Assembly: GCA_029261155.1 (NCBI GenBank) | Contig: JAJDBW010000030.1 | Span: 1 to 32,608 of the forward strand | Length of the DNA: 32,608 nucleotides | From: Nitrospirota bacterium | GTDB taxonomy: Bacteria > Nitrospirota > Nitrospiria > SBBL01 > JAADHI01 | Direction: 5' to 3' | Shown here: one piece after another, positions 18,883 through 30,953 of the stretch | How positions within the stretch are numbered: position 1 is the stretch's first letter | Layout of the letters: every line of letters starts with the position of its first letter | Notes under the pieces: generated by a model | What the model saw: only the letters and a program-made list of their open reading frames with translations | The model's database searches: none | What the model was told of the DNA's origin: nothing | Translations under genes and position numbers: made by a program

Positions 18883-20232
18883 TTATTCGATGAAGCTTGC
18901 GAGGACTTTATTGATGAGATTTTGGTGTTCGGCTAAGATTACTGAGCTGCTGGCTTCGAAACGCAGAACCAAGGCCGGTTGAGTGTTGGACGCCCGGATG
19001 AGCCCCCAACCGTCTTCGAATAAAATGCGAACCCCGTCGATATCGATAATCTTATATCGCTCCGCAAAATAGGCACGGCACTTTTCAACGACCTCAAATT
19101 TTTTATCATCCGCACAATCGACTCGGATTTCAGGTGTGGTGAAGCTTTTTGGAAGATCCAAAAAATAAGCGGAGAGCGGTTTGTTTTCTTTAACCAGAAT
19201 TTCGATCAATCGGCAAGCGGCATAGAGCGCGTCGTCGTAGCCGAAGTAGCGATCTGAGAAAAAGAGATGGCCACTCATTTCACCCGCCAAAAGCGCACCA
19301 CTCTCTTTCATCTTCGATTTAATCAAGGAATGACCGGTCTTCCACATGATGGCATGTCCGCCAAGACGCGTGACTTCATCATACAAAATTTGCGAGGCCT
19401 TGACTTCGGAAATAATCGTGGCGCCCGGATGCGTTTTTAAGATTTCACGCGCAAAGAAAAGCGTAAGTCGATCACCCCAGATAATCTCGCCATGTTCGTC
19501 AACGGCACCGATACGGTCGCCATCACCATCAAAAGCGATCCCCACGTCGGCCTTGTGTTCTTTGACGGCGGCAATCAAATCGGCCAAATTTTCTGCAACG
19601 GTGGGGTCGGGATGGTGATTTGGAAAAGTCCCATCGGGTTCACAAAAAAGCGGAACGATCTCGCAATCGAGTGCTTCAAAAAGCGTTTCCGCAATGAGGC
19701 CTGCCGCACCGTTTCCACAATCAATAACGACTTTTTTATTCTTAAAAGAAGGAAAGGCTTGAACGAAATAGTTGAGATAGGCCTTTAAAAAATTGGGTTC
19801 AGAGCTCAGCTGGCCTTCATGCTCGCCACGGTCAAAATCCTCTTGCTCGATCATCTGGCGGATCTTTTGTATTTCGTCGCCATGCAGTGTATGTTGCCCG
19901 CTGCACAGCTTGAAGCCGTTGTATTGGCCGGGATTATGACTGGCGGTTATCATCACACCGCCGTCGACCTTTAAGTTAAAAAGTGAAAAATAAAGCACAG
20001 GGGTCGGACATTTTCCGATGTCGACGACATCAACACCGCAAGTGAGCAGGCCCGATAATAGCGCTTGGCGCATATTCTCTGCGCTAAGCCGGACATCATA
20101 GCCAAGGGCGATGCGCTTGGCGCCCCGCCGGTGCATCAGGGTCCCGAAGGCCTTTCCGATGCCATTGGCAATTTCTTCCGTTAAATCTTCCCCAACGATG
20201 CCTCGAATATCATATTCGCGAAAGATAGACAC
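18883..20232 (-). CDS. manB: Phosphomannomutase/phosphoglucomutase
   Basis: A 449-residue alpha-D-phosphohexomutase that interconverts mannose-6-phosphate and mannose-1-phosphate (and often the glucose forms). It opens with the family's FREYDIRGIVGEDL. The phosphoserine loop is ITASHNP with Ser98, the Mg loop is DGDGDR (Asp235, 237, 239), the sugar-binding loop is AGEMSGH and the phosphate-binding loop RASNTQPAL is near the end. The form is that of AlgC/ManB. It lies 10 bases after manC on the same strand, so the pair supplies GDP-mannose for polysaccharide or LPS. The symbol algC would fit equally. Confidence 0.93.
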   Translation of the reverse strand: MSIFREYDIRGIVGEDLTEEIANGIGKAFGTLMHRRGAKRIALGYDVRLSAENMRQALLSGLLTCGVDVVDIGKCPTPVLYFSLFNLKVDGGVMITASHNPGQYNGFKLCSGQHTLHGDEIQKIRQMIEQEDFDRGEHEGQLSSEPNFLKAYLNYFVQAFPSFKNKKVVIDCGNGAAGLIAETLFEALDCEIVPLFCEPDGTFPNHHPDPTVAENLADLIAAVKEHKADVGIAFDGDGDRIGAVDEHGEIIWGDRLTLFFAREILKTHPGATIISEVKASQILYDEVTRLGGHAIMWKTGHSLIKSKMKESGALLAGEMSGHLFFSDRYFGYDDALYAACRLIEILVKENKPLSAYFLDLPKSFTTPEIRVDCADDKKFEVVEKCRAYFAERYKIIDIDGVRILFEDGWGLIRASNTQPALVLRFEASSSVILAEHQNLINKVLASFIE

Positions 20233-20242
20233 TTAAAGCAAC

Positions 20243-21682
20243 CTAGCCTTTCTTCTTTTCAATTCTGCCGTTTTTAGCGCGACCGTAATCATCTTGGTAA
20301 CGGACAATATCGTCTTCGCCGAGATAGCGTCCGGATTGGACTTCGATGAGTTGAAGTGGCTCGTCGGTCGGATTCTCCAGGCGGTGTTTAACTCCCATCG
20401 GTACGAAGGTGCTCTGATTTTCTTGAATGGTGTACACGCTTTCGCCGCAGGTCACGCGTGCGGTGCCCGACACCACAACCCAGTGCTCGCTCCGTTTTTT
20501 ATGGCGTTGAAGCGAGAGTCGAGAATGCGGGTTAACCACGATGCGCTTGATTTTGTAACCTGGGCCCTCCTCCAAGGTTGTAAAGCTGCCCCAGGCCCTG
20601 ATGATCGTCCGGTGAACGCGATGGGATTCCGCTTTCTTTGCTTTGAGAATCGCCACCACCTTTTTGACGTCCTGTGCCGAGGCTTTGTCGCAGACGAGTG
20701 TGGCATCGTCGGTGTCGGCGACAACAATGTTGTCCAAGCCAACGACGGCGATCATCCGCTTATCGCCATAGATTGTGCTATTTTTACTATCGACATTCAC
20801 CACGTTTCCCGTGATGATGTTTCCGTCCGCGTCCTTCGGGATGACCTCATCCAAGGCATTCCATGAGCCGACATCCTCCCAACCCATGTCCGTCGGAATG
20901 ACCGCGATTCGATCCGATTTTTCGAGAATGCCGTAGTCCACCGATGTGGCGGGGAGCTCTGCGTAAATGGCCTCTAGGCAGTCTCCTTCCTCCTTTGTTC
21001 CTATTTTATCCTCGATCGCTTTAAGTCCTTCAGAAAGCTCTGGCAAGAAGCGTTCAATCTCAGTCAATATGGTCGAGACCTTCCATACAAATATCCCGGT
21101 ATTCCAGAAAAAAGCGTCTTTTTGAAAAAAACCCTCTGCGATTTCGAGCTTCGGTTTTTCGATAAAACGAAGCACCTTTGAGGCAGGGGAATTCTCACTT
21201 AAGACCTTGCCCCGTTCAATATAACCATAAGCCGTTTCCGGACGTGTCGGTTTCGCTCCGATGGTCACCAAGTAGCCTTCTTCGGCAAGTTGCTCGGCTT
21301 GACGGAGGGCGTTTAGAAAGACGGGCGTATGTCGCACGAAATGGTCTGCAGATAACACGACCATAACGCCGTCTTGAAGTTGCTTTCGAAGGGTGACGGC
21401 AGCGAGTCCAATCGCGGCGGCGGTGTTCCGGCCAAAGGGTTCCGAAATAAAGTGAGGACCCAATTCACCACTTGAAGGGAGTTGTAATTGTATTTGTTCG
21501 GCCTGTTTTGGATTGGTTACAATATAAAGCTGCTTGGATGGAATGAGGTCGGAGACACGCGAAAGCGTGGCCTGAATTAGGGTTTGGTTTCCAAAAATAT
21601 TAAGCAGTTGTTTTGGATATTCCTCGCGGCTCAAAGGCCAAAAGCGTGTTCCGCTCCCTCCTGCCAATATTACCCCATACAT
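20243..21682 (-). CDS. manC: Mannose-1-phosphate guanylyltransferase/mannose-6-phosphate isomerase
   Basis: A 479-residue two-domain enzyme. Residues 1 to about 350 are the nucleotidyltransferase, with the GTP-binding signature GGSGTRFWPLSREEYPKQLL (8-27), the FIEKP motif and DYGILEKSD; it makes GDP-mannose. The C-terminal 100 residues are the type II phosphomannose isomerase cupin, with HSRLSLQRHKKRSEHWVVV and FVPMGVKHRLENP. Both steps feed the GDP-mannose pool. It is first in a two-gene operon with manB. The likely ribosome binding site is AAAGGGTGA before ATG 21682. Confidence 0.95.
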   Translation of the reverse strand: MYGVILAGGSGTRFWPLSREEYPKQLLNIFGNQTLIQATLSRVSDLIPSKQLYIVTNPKQAEQIQLQLPSSGELGPHFISEPFGRNTAAAIGLAAVTLRKQLQDGVMVVLSADHFVRHTPVFLNALRQAEQLAEEGYLVTIGAKPTRPETAYGYIERGKVLSENSPASKVLRFIEKPKLEIAEGFFQKDAFFWNTGIFVWKVSTILTEIERFLPELSEGLKAIEDKIGTKEEGDCLEAIYAELPATSVDYGILEKSDRIAVIPTDMGWEDVGSWNALDEVIPKDADGNIITGNVVNVDSKNSTIYGDKRMIAVVGLDNIVVADTDDATLVCDKASAQDVKKVVAILKAKKAESHRVHRTIIRAWGSFTTLEEGPGYKIKRIVVNPHSRLSLQRHKKRSEHWVVVSGTARVTCGESVYTIQENQSTFVPMGVKHRLENPTDEPLQLIEVQSGRYLGEDDIVRYQDDYGRAKNGRIEKKKG

Positions 21683-27050: not shown

Positions 27051-27536
27051 ATGGCTACAATGATTACGTTTCATGTTCCGAATGATAAAGACTTGCTGGC
27101 AGCATTTGGCGAGGTGACCCTCCGTCATGAGCACCTTAGCCATATTTTACGTATGACTATTAAGACCCTGGCACGACTAACACCCGAAGAAGCTCTCGAC
27201 GCTACTTCCTACGATGGCTCACGCCAGCTACGGGAATGTATCAGTAAACTAGCGCGTCAAAGACTTGGAGTGGGAGAGCCTCTATTGAAACTGAAAGCTC
27301 TTCTAGAGCGTTGCAAACGTGCTACGGGCACACGGAACCAATTAATACACAGCATCTGGGCGAAGGAATTAGACGGCGAACCCTTGCGTCGTAGCGCTGA
27401 TCACACATGGCATCCACTACCAACCATTGAGGAACTATTGGCTTTAGCTAAGGAACTTCAAACTCTTACCGAATCTCTAAACGATGCACGACTACAAGGC
27501 TTTCTGTCTGAGGCACTTTCGAAGCGCCCAGATTAA
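27051..27536 (+). CDS. HEPN-like hypothetical protein
   Basis: A 161-residue, mostly helical protein that I cannot assign to a named family. Residues 93-101 read GTRNQLIHS, which contains the R-x4-H motif (Arg95 to His100, with Asn96) typical of HEPN-domain ribonucleases and nucleotide-binding HEPN proteins. The motif sits after long helices, as in that fold (RHEHLSHILRMTIKTLARL, LLKLKALLERCKRAT). HEPN proteins often act as toxins with a MNT antitoxin, but no such partner is adjacent: both neighbours are gene-free or unrelated. It may be a solitary gene of a mobile region. Fold inferred from motif and helix pattern; function open. Confidence 0.6.
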   Translation: MATMITFHVPNDKDLLAAFGEVTLRHEHLSHILRMTIKTLARLTPEEALDATSYDGSRQLRECISKLARQRLGVGEPLLKLKALLERCKRATGTRNQLIHSIWAKELDGEPLRRSADHTWHPLPTIEELLALAKELQTLTESLNDARLQGFLSEALSKRPD

Positions 27537-28059: not shown

Positions 28060-29604
28060 ATGACAAAGCGATTATCGATAAAGACTCTTTTAGGCCTAGT
28101 TCTCTTTTTACTCTTTTCTTTTGTTTCTCTCCCAGCATGGAGCGCTACGACCGATGCCTTAGCGCCCACGGAGGGTTTACTCCAGTTTAGCTTTGAAGAA
28201 GTGACCCTTCCTAAAGACGAAAAGATGGGATTAATGGGGGGCGCTTTTTTGTATGAGATAAACCCGTGGTTTTCCATGGGATTGGGTTCGTATGGGGCGA
28301 TTACAGGAGAACGGGGCGGTTTTATCACGCTGGGGATTGCAGCTGATCTCAGGATGGCACTCAATGACCATCTCAATCTAAAGAGTGGGTTATTTGTGGG
28401 GGCTGGGGGTGGAAGAGGCGGATTCACGCTTCAGGGGGGTGGTTTAATGCTTCGGCCTCATCTGGGTTTGTCTCTTGAAACCGGGGACTGGGGGAATGTT
28501 GGATTCGGCATCAGCCATGTCCATTTCCCGAATGGCAACATTCGTAGTACGCAACCCTATTTAATTTATTCCTTTCCATTTGAACTCTTCATTTCACACG
28601 CTTGGCTCGAAAAACCCGCTTTTACTCAACACGCCGATAAAAAGATTCCTGCATCCGAACGGGAATTTTCCGCGATTTACCGAAGGTATAAAGTAGCGAA
28701 GGGGGTCGTCACGGATGGGGGTAGCCCTCAGCACAGCAGTATTGATTTGATGGGTGTTGAATGGGTGCATGCTTTAGAGAGCAACTTCTTTCTAAAGATT
28801 GAATCGGAAGGGGCCATGGGCGGTCGCAGCAATGGCTATATGCAAGTTCTGATCGGGGGGGGATACCGATTGAGGCTGTCGGACCTAATGCTTGCCAAAA
28901 TTGCAACACAAATAGGGTTTGCGGGCGGTGGTTCCGTTTCGACCGGAGGTGGTTTCATTTATGATGTTTCACTCGGTCTCCAGCACGATCTGACGGATGC
29001 ACTTTTTCTGGGACTCGCGGGTGGCTTTGTTCATGCACCTGATGGCGACTTTAAGGCGACGAGCTTTTCCCTGCAGCTGGGCGTACGCTATGGTGTGCCC
29101 CTTGTCAAAAGAGAAGCCATAAAGTTCTCTTCATTGTCAGATTATCAGTGGCAACATTTAAGGCTCAGGATGACCCATCAGACTTACGTTGAAGCAAGAT
29201 CGACATGGCGAAACCATCACACCGATGAGAATGTCGATCTCCTTGGAATGCAGGCGGATTATTTTATTCGAGACTATCTTTATGTGAGCGGCCAAGGCAT
29301 TGGCGCCTATGATGGAAATGCAGGCGGATATATGACCGGGCTCTGGGGCTTAGGGTATCACCTGCCTATTTTAAATACGCCGGTGTTTTTAGACCTCGAA
29401 GGATTAGTGGGCGCCGCAGGCGGCGGCGGGCTCGATGTCGCAGGTGGCCTAGTCTGGCAAGGGAATATCGGCTTGGGCTATGCCTTCAGTAAATCATTGG
29501 CCTTAATCGGCTCTACAGGCTATATGAGCGCGCCAAAAGGAAATTTCAGGGCAAAGGTCTTTGGGCTTTCTCTTGCGTATCATTTTACATTGTTTACAAA
29601 ATGA
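28060..29604 (+). CDS. Three-repeat outer-membrane barrel-like protein
   Basis: A 514-residue exported protein. The signal peptide (about 1-29, ending PAWSA) precedes a body rich in glycine and alternating hydrophobic strands, ending in AYHFTLFTK. The body is three diverged copies of about 120-130 residues: about 40-172, 227-346 and 391-509. Each copy runs through a glycine cluster and then a fixed tail. The clusters are VGAGGGRGGFTLQGGG, IGFAGGGSVSTGGG and VGAAGGGGLDVAGG. The tails are HVHFPNGNIRS, GFVHAPDGDFKAT and GYMSAPKGNFRAK, each followed by a final strand. I do not recognise a named family. There is no Shine-Dalgarno before ATG 28060, which is odd. Outer-membrane location is inferred from the strand pattern. 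Confidence 0.75.
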   Translation: MTKRLSIKTLLGLVLFLLFSFVSLPAWSATTDALAPTEGLLQFSFEEVTLPKDEKMGLMGGAFLYEINPWFSMGLGSYGAITGERGGFITLGIAADLRMALNDHLNLKSGLFVGAGGGRGGFTLQGGGLMLRPHLGLSLETGDWGNVGFGISHVHFPNGNIRSTQPYLIYSFPFELFISHAWLEKPAFTQHADKKIPASEREFSAIYRRYKVAKGVVTDGGSPQHSSIDLMGVEWVHALESNFFLKIESEGAMGGRSNGYMQVLIGGGYRLRLSDLMLAKIATQIGFAGGGSVSTGGGFIYDVSLGLQHDLTDALFLGLAGGFVHAPDGDFKATSFSLQLGVRYGVPLVKREAIKFSSLSDYQWQHLRLRMTHQTYVEARSTWRNHHTDENVDLLGMQADYFIRDYLYVSGQGIGAYDGNAGGYMTGLWGLGYHLPILNTPVFLDLEGLVGAAGGGGLDVAGGLVWQGNIGLGYAFSKSLALIGSTGYMSAPKGNFRAKVFGLSLAYHFTLFTK

Positions 29605-29760: not shown

Positions 29761-30264
29761 ATGAAGCATTTAATTGTTTTCATAATGCTATTGACGCTCT
29801 CTGGATGTATCACAAAGAATATTTCTGGAAGGATGTACAATCTGGATGATGGCTCAATCATTGAAGTCAGTTTAAAAAACTATCATCTCGGTTACGGAAA
29901 GGCAGCAGCGACATTGGCGAACGGAGAATTTTTAATAGGTGAATATACCCTTTCTAAAACTACAGCCCCTCAAACGCCAATCCCTCATACGGGACCTGCC
30001 CTACCTTCGGAAAGTAAAGTAGAGTTGGGCGCGGCCTCTGTAATTCCCGGAAATGAAGATCCCTCTTGGTCTGAGGTCTATGGCTATAGTCGAAATGGCA
30101 GAGCGACCCCGGTGGGGACTGCCACGTTAATCGGGGATCGAGGTACACTCATTAACATCGTGCTCTTTAGTGCCGACACCATACGGGCGGTCGGGGATGG
30201 TGTTGCACGGACAAATCGCGGCGAATGGTACCGTGTCCATCTTGGCAATTTGAGTGAAGAATAG
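29761..30264 (+). CDS. Hypothetical lipoprotein
   Basis: A 167-residue protein with a lipoprotein signal peptide (LTLSGC, Cys16). It is hydrophilic after the lipobox. The middle region reads GKAAATLANGEFLIGEYTL and, later, TPVGTATLIGDRGTLINIVLFSADT, suggesting a small beta-rich domain. No named family is recognised. GGAGG precedes the ATG at 29761. It sits between the barrel gene and an exported dioxygenase on the same strand, but gaps of 156 and 38 bases leave the transcript grouping open; the second gap is short enough for co-transcription. Confidence 0.75.
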   Translation: MKHLIVFIMLLTLSGCITKNISGRMYNLDDGSIIEVSLKNYHLGYGKAAATLANGEFLIGEYTLSKTTAPQTPIPHTGPALPSESKVELGAASVIPGNEDPSWSEVYGYSRNGRATPVGTATLIGDRGTLINIVLFSADTIRAVGDGVARTNRGEWYRVHLGNLSEE

Positions 30265-30302
30265 TAGTCAAATCCTCCAATTCATATCAGGTGAATAACT
30301 TG

Positions 30303-30953
30303 ATGACTCAATTTTCAAGAAGGCGTATTCTTAAACTCGGCTTGCTCGGAGGTATGACCACCTTTTTTGGCTTCAATGGCTGCGTGCGTGCCAGCGACGG
30401 CACTACGCCGCCGGAAGTGGAAGGGCCCTTTTATCCGGTCGTGGCTCAAAAAGATCGGGATTTCGATCTGACGAAATTCGAGGGCCAGGATGGCGTCGCA
30501 GAAGGAAATCAGGTGATGATTGCCGGGCGAATTGTCGATCTTTCGGGCAAGGGTATCGAGGATGCCAGCGTCGATTTGTGGCAGGCCAATGCCAAGGGCC
30601 GTTACCGCCATCCGCACGATGACAATCCGGCGCCGCTCGATCCCCACTTTCAGGGCTGGGCCATCGTGCAAAGCGGCCAAGACGGTGGATTCCGGTTTAA
30701 GACGGTCATACCGGGCGAATACCCCGCATCGGCCAACTGGGTTCGGCCACCGCACATTCACTTTAAAATTGCGAAAAAGGGTTATATGGAACTCACGACT
30801 CAAATGTACTTTCCCGGTGAAAAGTTAAACGAAACGGATGCCCTATTAAAAAAGAAGTCGGCAGCAGACCGTGCTTTGATGATCGCCCAAAGAGAAAAAG
30901 CTGAAGAGGGTTTTGATCTGTATCGCTTCAATATTATCCTTCGTGAAGCATAA
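30303..30953 (+). CDS. Exported intradiol-type dioxygenase
   Basis: A 216-residue protein of the intradiol ring-cleavage dioxygenase fold (protocatechuate 3,4-dioxygenase beta-like). The iron ligands expected for the family are present: Tyr101 (GRYRHPHD), Tyr140 (PGEYP), His151 and His153 (PPHIHFKI). The N-terminus has a twin-arginine-like signal (SRRRILKLGLLGG) ending near NGC, so it is probably exported folded and perhaps lipid-anchored. Cytoplasmic members cleave catechols; exported members are less well known. The start is ATG 30303, eight bases after AGGTGA; an upstream in-frame GTG at 30291 overlaps that site. No aromatic-degradation genes are nearby. Confidence 0.88.
   Translation: MTQFSRRRILKLGLLGGMTTFFGFNGCVRASDGTTPPEVEGPFYPVVAQKDRDFDLTKFEGQDGVAEGNQVMIAGRIVDLSGKGIEDASVDLWQANAKGRYRHPHDDNPAPLDPHFQGWAIVQSGQDGGFRFKTVIPGEYPASANWVRPPHIHFKIAKKGYMELTTQMYFPGEKLNETDALLKKKSAADRALMIAQREKAEEGFDLYRFNIILREA

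Follow-up and report, generated by a model that had tools for sequence, protein, structure and literature searches.

Predicted three-barrel outer-membrane proteins form an unnamed family associated with OPX polysaccharide export genes in several phyla

Results

The locus and the encoded protein

The window, that is, the whole stretch of 32,608 nucleotides analysed here (contig JAJDBW010000030.1 of a Nitrospirota bacterium), contains on its forward strand an open reading frame (28060-29604) encoding a 514-aa protein. Based on this frame, an alignment of 74 family members, and an AlphaFold2 model (pLDDT 93.6), we predict it to be a triple-barrel outer-membrane protein. It starts with a signal peptide recognised by eye (residues 1-29, 28060-28146, +), which would be cleaved near AWSA-TT and contains a predicted helix at residues 7-22. 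Three repeats of eight strands each follow, all bounded according to the model and recovered in the repeat tree: repeat 1 (residues 37-180, 28168-28599, +), which is also seen in the repeat alignment, repeat 2 (residues 198-347, 28651-29100, +), which superposes on the barrels of OprF, OmpW, and OmpA, and repeat 3 (residues 363-513, 29146-29598, +), which contains the best Pfam OMP_b-brl stretch (395-509). The two linkers, residues 181-197 (28600-28650, +) and 348-362 (29101-29145, +), are delimited by the model and by conservation; both are variable and would be periplasmic under the assumed topology.

The generic OMP_b-brl domain (PF13505) is the single Pfam match of the protein (E 1.8e-7; 31.9 bits, above the cut-off of 28.7), and at E <= 0.01 it is found in 7 of the 74 family members. 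In NCBIfam the window protein has zero matches up to an E value of 10, and none of the 74 members receives a name, the sole match being a marginal and generic one in one member; a single-sequence search of PDB chains with the window protein, under the same E limit, found no match either. By these sequence searches the family, which occurs in several phyla, has no name: its Pfam matches are generic, and NCBIfam names none of its members.

Promoter and terminator scans yielded no more sites than shuffled sequences. Upstream of the gene lies a 161-aa open reading frame (27051-27536, +) with very weak matches to DUF6477 (E 0.03) and a HEPN-like family (E 0.13). Directly downstream is a small putative lipoprotein of 167 aa (29761-30264, +) with an LSGC lipobox seen by eye, for which Pfam at E up to 1 and NCBIfam at E up to 0.001 gave no match. 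The window also encodes an intradiol-type dioxygenase (30291-30953, +), whose best NCBIfam match, protocatechuate 3,4-dioxygenase beta, is below the cut-off and whose N-terminus looks twin-arginine-like by eye. The genes of phosphomannomutase and mannose-1-phosphate guanylyltransferase type (manB/manC type by Pfam; 18883-21682, -) are about 6.4 kb away. No OPX or Wzz gene adjacent to 28060-29604 was found in the window.

Three ancient repeats

The preliminary description had read the protein as three tandem repeats, which is confirmed both by Smith-Waterman comparison with shuffled sequences and by the AlphaFold2 model. The limits it proposed (40-172, 227-346, and 391-509) lie inside the model-defined repeats, but in repeats 2 and 3 they leave out strand 1. 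In every repeat of the window protein, the glycine clusters to which it drew attention recur at equivalent places, as does the P-x-G-(N/D)-(F/I) tail, and all of these map to loops L2, L3, and L4 of the model. For the units 28-185, 195-352, and 358-514, each compared with 1000 composition-preserving shuffles and with reversed copies, the scores were 119 (repeats 1 and 2), 155 (2 and 3), and 87 (1 and 3), against best shuffle scores of 69, 63, and 64 and reversed-copy scores of 38, 40, and 34, respectively. Since all repeat scores exceed those of the composition-matched shuffles and reversed copies, low-complexity glycine content is ruled out as the source of the similarity in the window protein.

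Among three homologues from the genus or family of the window, the similarity of repeat 3 to both repeat 2 and repeat 1 is clear in all six comparisons, with scores reached by no shuffle. The similarity of repeats 1 and 2 is weak in two of these three proteins, the score being 48 in L002 (reached by 9 of 1000 shuffles), 61 in L004 (best shuffle 60, reversed copy 62), and 69 in L003 (best shuffle 61). In a tree of 222 repeat units, the first, second, and third repeats each form a perfect clade of 74 out of 74 (supports 1.0, 0.957, and 0.943). Judging from these perfect clades, the triplication is ancient and had occurred before the sampled family spread, with no homogenisation of the repeats since.

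Predicted structure

The AlphaFold2 model computed with 74 homologues (pTM 0.88) has 24 strands, eight long ones per repeat; a model from four sequences (pLDDT 64.5, pTM 0.48) likewise has 24 strands in nearly the same places. In the predicted structure repeat 2 is a complete closed eight-strand barrel: residues 198-344 superpose on OprF (4rlc; Z 17.4, 2.0 A, 124 residues), and repeat 2 also matches a designed eight-strand barrel (Z 17.3), OmpW (2f1t, Z 17.0), and OmpA (1qjp, Z 16.0). The structural alignments are dominated by repeat 2, and the absence of other families from them was not used as evidence; among the 50 listed, no solved outer-membrane barrel is aligned to repeat 1 or 3 by itself, and repeat 1 by itself is aligned only to other beta-barrel-like proteins (Z 8.2-9.3). 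Porin III of the Legionella Dot/Icm machine (9nh2) is a further match of residues 198-348 (Z 17.1, 142 residues), which probably reflects just the common eight-strand fold.

The preliminary description had offered either one very large barrel or three linked barrels. Because repeat 2 superposes on closed eight-strand barrels and the whole chain matches large barrels poorly (TM by query length 0.13-0.29, rmsd 14.8-24.5 A among the 50 Foldseek matches listed), and with eight strands per repeat, the model supports three small eight-strand barrels in one chain. The other option, a single 24-strand barrel, agrees with the strand count of exactly 24 and is nonetheless extremely improbable, being disfavoured by the fit of repeat 2 on its own to closed eight-strand barrels and by a TM of 0.17 (by query length, on Foldseek's own alignment) to the 24-strand usher FimD.

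Barrels 1 and 3 presumably close in the same way, given their homology to barrel 2. The signal peptide seen by eye, together with the barrel fold, would place the protein in the outer membrane. In the model the three barrels may be tightly packed, and a defined packing, be it a row or a triangle, is likely, since rigid domains lacking a fixed arrangement should give a pTM much lower than 0.88.

Conserved loops

Outer-membrane barrels with an even number of strands have both termini in the periplasm. Under this assumption, loops L2, L3, and L4 of each repeat would be extracellular. These loops, which are short and rarely carry insertions, belong to the best-conserved parts of the protein, with a mean entropy of 0.80-1.86 bits per loop in the family alignment, against 2.33-2.57 bits for the variable L1 loops and a mean of 2.66 bits for the likewise variable periplasmic turns. 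Ordinary outer-membrane proteins usually present the opposite picture. The loop conservation can also have other causes, for instance folding.

Many strictly conserved glycines are located in L2 and L3 and on strands 3-5. Glycine occupies 23 strand positions in more than 80% of the sequences, 15 of them facing the lumen according to an assignment by hydrophobicity that is uncertain in the case of strands 1 and 2. The conserved non-glycine columns (entropy < 0.6 in 74 sequences) are A80, R85, F88, T90, S152, F156, P157, I161, S163, Q165, A252, Y260, F331, Y376, R384, Q412, A416, Y424, A452, A453, and A491, with no histidine among them.

Distribution and phylogeny of the family

Homologues of 507-512 aa, aligned along all three repeats, were found in three of 57 other genomes among the relatives of the window's organism. 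A scan of GTDB genomes revealed 135 loci encoding a relative; according to their titles, the best 80 of the 135, which were kept, belong to Zetaproteobacteria, Burkholderiales, other Gammaproteobacteria, Chlorobiaceae, Campylobacterota, Flavobacteriaceae, Nitrospirota, and a few others. Plasmid records gave no match. The alignment comprises 74 of 84 homologues, with P0001 standing for L001. Sequences at contig edges or with partial matches (L035, L036, L064, and L077), duplicates (L065 has the genes of L003, and L079 those of L002), and those judged redundant with others of the set (L027, L031, L040, and L062) were left out.

A profile of these 74 sequences matches 37 of 150 genomes of the Limnohabitans family, where 42 of 47 matches cover 450 or more of the 514 positions; the same holds for 39 of 43 matches in 37 genomes that were known carriers beforehand. 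In the phylum of the window 7 of 245 genomes match, its own genome included, two of them weakly over about 100 residues. Such weak matches (G290 and G296, E about 2e-4) were not accepted as members, and neither was a second, weak match (E 0.17) in the genome of the window.

The midpoint-rooted protein tree falls into halves of 45 and 29 sequences (branch support 100/100). The window protein belongs to the larger half, together with proteins of Zetaproteobacteria, Burkholderiales, and Chlorobiaceae, whereas the copies from its own genus or family (L002-L004) belong to the smaller one. The contig itself seems ordinary for its genome, as in five of six genus or family members searched the best match to its ABC-F protein has 63-69% identity (34% in the sixth, G003). 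Since the gene and its contig thus differ in their affinities, the window gene is probably an old paralogue or the result of horizontal transfer.

OPX and Wzz genes in the neighbourhood

We clustered the open reading frames of the fetched loci, 78 distinct ones with 727 kb of flanks in all (mean 9.3 kb per locus; the loci L012 and L024 share a genome). Apart from the family, the most widespread clusters, identified from Pfam matches of examples, are OPX (27 loci), Wzz-type chain-length proteins (21 loci, every one also with OPX), and sugar epimerase or dehydratase types (10 loci). Uniform placement, a crude null, would give OPX at 0.31 loci, and this test, like the other OPX tests below, ignores phylogeny. 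The 27 loci are probably a lower bound, because the ORFs were called crudely and contig ends often truncate the flanks. Loci with OPX occur in both halves of the protein tree (12 of 45 and 13 of 29 sequences), and the gene order and orientation vary among them, OPX being downstream and co-directional, upstream and co-directional, or convergent. For instance, in Mariprofundus ferrooxydans PV-1 a run of UDP-glucose dehydrogenase, epimerase, LMW phosphatase, OPX, and Wzz/GNVR genes begins 30 bp after the gene. Pfam identified one example each of undecaprenyl diphosphate synthase, UDP-glucose dehydrogenase, and LMW phosphatase, and one Thiobacillus locus contains a gene for the exosortase-associated protein EpsI.

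Poly_export and SLBB domains were detected in all ten OPX proteins scanned (nine from the 27 loci and one from the window's genome), a GfcC C-terminal domain in one of them, and Wza_C in none. All four Wzz-type proteins scanned, from three loci and the window's genome, score above the Wzz cut-off, one by a narrow margin (25.6 versus 25.5 bits). The 25 complete OPX partners are 287-1077 aa long (median 815). Comparison of 27 C-termini by eye revealed a shared tail of the KDWTQILYQ..G.AA type after the last SLBB domain in 21 of the 25 complete partners; it is moderately hydrophobic, looks helix-like, and is absent in L006, L014, L017, and L064.

In the remaining 51 of 78 loci OPX was not found in the fetched flanks, many of which are shortened by contig ends. 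Among 64 immediate neighbours from loci without OPX, no Pfam family occurs in more than three, glycosyl transferase 4 (WecA type) being one of the three-member families. A gene of the Zetaproteobacteria stalk cluster sfz, sfz3, encodes a protein of similar length, going by an excerpt of PMC8250860. A link to this cluster was dropped, as M. ferrooxydans PV-1 has one family match, which is situated beside a different sugar operon.

The window's genome has two OPX loci elsewhere. One (L089) includes a short OPX and a chain-length protein in an XrtA/PEP-CTERM-like exopolysaccharide cluster, identified by NCBIfam matches below their cut-offs, together with a TIGR03016-like protein that resembles a PEP-CTERM-associated outer-membrane protein, likewise below the cut-off. 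In the other, the gene of a long OPX (857 aa) is next to one of Wzz type, and around it no barrel gene was recognised by eye among ORFs of at least 150 aa. By its type, the 857-aa OPX is a better candidate partner of the window protein than the short one.

Co-occurrence with OPX across genomes

At the level of whole genomes, OPX is present in all 37 carriers among 150 genomes of the Limnohabitans family and in 70 of 113 non-carriers (Fisher p 4e-7). In the subset with sizes listed for OPX-negative genomes (G108-G178), the contrast is 14 of 14 against 23 of 33 at sizes of 3.5 Mb or more (p 0.018) and 11 of 11 against 19 of 24 at 4.0 Mb or more (p 0.13), so that it becomes weaker once size is controlled, and genome size could confound it. 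Among 50 carrier genomes across phyla, whose completeness is not stated, 43 have OPX and seven have no OPX match. A long OPX without the family protein is found in many Nitrospirota relatives, including G005-G007 from the window's own family. The dependence is one-way: carriers mostly have OPX, whereas long OPX proteins often occur without the family protein.

Discussion

Comparison with known systems

Multi-barrel outer-membrane proteins were reportedly described by Solan et al. in 2021, and combinations with eight-strand barrels are said to prevail among them. The window protein resembles this class in its predicted possession of more than one beta-barrel domain per chain: the model contains separate barrels, repeat 2 being closed in it and repeats 1 and 3 by homology. 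It differs from the class as reported there in having three barrels, in belonging to a family of several phyla, and in the link of that family to OPX. PMC11494523 refers to this class as an earlier study of its authors. The same paper presents GfcD of group 4 capsule export as modelled with 12 + 13 strands and a lateral gate, its middle domain being periplasmic. GfcD and YjbH are multi-barrel proteins encoded with an OPX export system, whereas the window protein has 8 + 8 + 8 strands joined by short linkers and neither 12- and 13-strand barrels nor a middle domain. Of the analogues known to us, the closest is GfcD, which has two barrels and belongs to an OPX-linked system of capsule export.

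The composite translocons EpsX and Wzp, as described in PMC9601211 and PMC9603273, have an 18-strand barrel and act mainly with short OPX proteins that have no membrane helix; 93% of the coupled barrels of Schwabe et al. go with an OPX of at most 280 aa. The family resembles them in 27 of 78 loci, the window not being one of these, where its predicted outer-membrane barrel gene lies near an OPX gene. Unlike them, it has three sets of eight strands instead of a single 18-strand barrel, and its partner OPX proteins are mostly long, the shortest of the 25 complete ones having 287 aa. OmpW, OmpA, and OprF share the fold of repeat 2, but they have one barrel per chain, and the window protein has no sequence match among PDB chains. 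We found no description of a three-barrel family of this kind in the literature searched, which is weak evidence of absence, as subscription papers were mostly outside its scope.

Possible role

The link with polysaccharide export is well supported for the family and less so for the window gene. On balance we regard the protein as probably an accessory of OPX/Wzz-type polysaccharide export, forming a three-barrel platform beside the exit. A long OPX would span the periplasm and reach the outer membrane with its own helix-like tail, as seen by eye; the three barrels, fused head to tail, would form a platform beside the OPX exit; and the conserved short glycine-rich extracellular loops may hold, guide, or anchor the emerging chain. 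The protein would accordingly contact both OPX and the polysaccharide.

Alternatively, it could be a structural or small-molecule protein of the OmpA/OmpW kind, its linkage to OPX being incidental. The 51 loci in whose fetched flanks no OPX was found, the solitary position of the window gene, and the presence of OmpW- and OmpA-type barrels among the closest solved folds listed are in line with this. It is nevertheless unlikely, considering that 27 loci have OPX against 0.31 expected, that these loci differ in gene order and represent both halves of the tree, and that OPX is present in all 37 carriers of one family.

Another reading is that the polymer leaves through the barrels or between them, so that the protein would be the exit pore for OPX export in the outer membrane, as EpsX/Wzp is in Myxococcus. 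It draws on the similar pairing of OPX and beta-barrel genes in the genomes, on the pTM of 0.88, which suggests a defined arrangement in which a gap between barrels could exist, and on the lack of a match to Wza_C, the known OPX membrane helix, in all ten partners scanned. The lumen of an eight-strand barrel is too narrow for the passage of a polymer. Moreover, the partner OPX proteins are mostly long, and a helix-like tail was seen by eye in 21 of the 25 complete ones, while the barrels of Schwabe et al. are almost always coupled to a short OPX. We therefore consider a pore quite unlikely and prefer an accessory role, in which the protein would hold or guide the polymer at the surface, because the barrels are narrow and the partner OPX proteins are mostly long with a helix-like tail.

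A surface enzyme acting on lipid A or other lipids, similar to PagL or PagP and present in three repeats, is improbable: eight-strand barrels do include such enzymes, and PagL (2erv) aligns with repeat 2 at Z 14.9, which is no better than the non-enzymes OprF and OmpA. The PagL lipid A deacylase relies on a conserved His-Ser catalytic pair, and with no conserved histidine column in 74 sequences, a PagL-type site is not conserved in the family.

The passage of polysaccharides across the outer membrane and their retention at the surface are understood in part only. Returning to the accessory role, we would tentatively suggest, as a possibility of low probability, that the three-barrel platform and a long multi-SLBB OPX with its own membrane helix make up an undescribed exit complex, in which the glycine-rich loops receive or retain the polysaccharide. 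An unnamed multi-phylum family tied to OPX by its neighbourhood is a direct target for studies of polysaccharide export, and three homologous barrels, predicted to be fused in one chain, provide a case for asking why barrels fuse.
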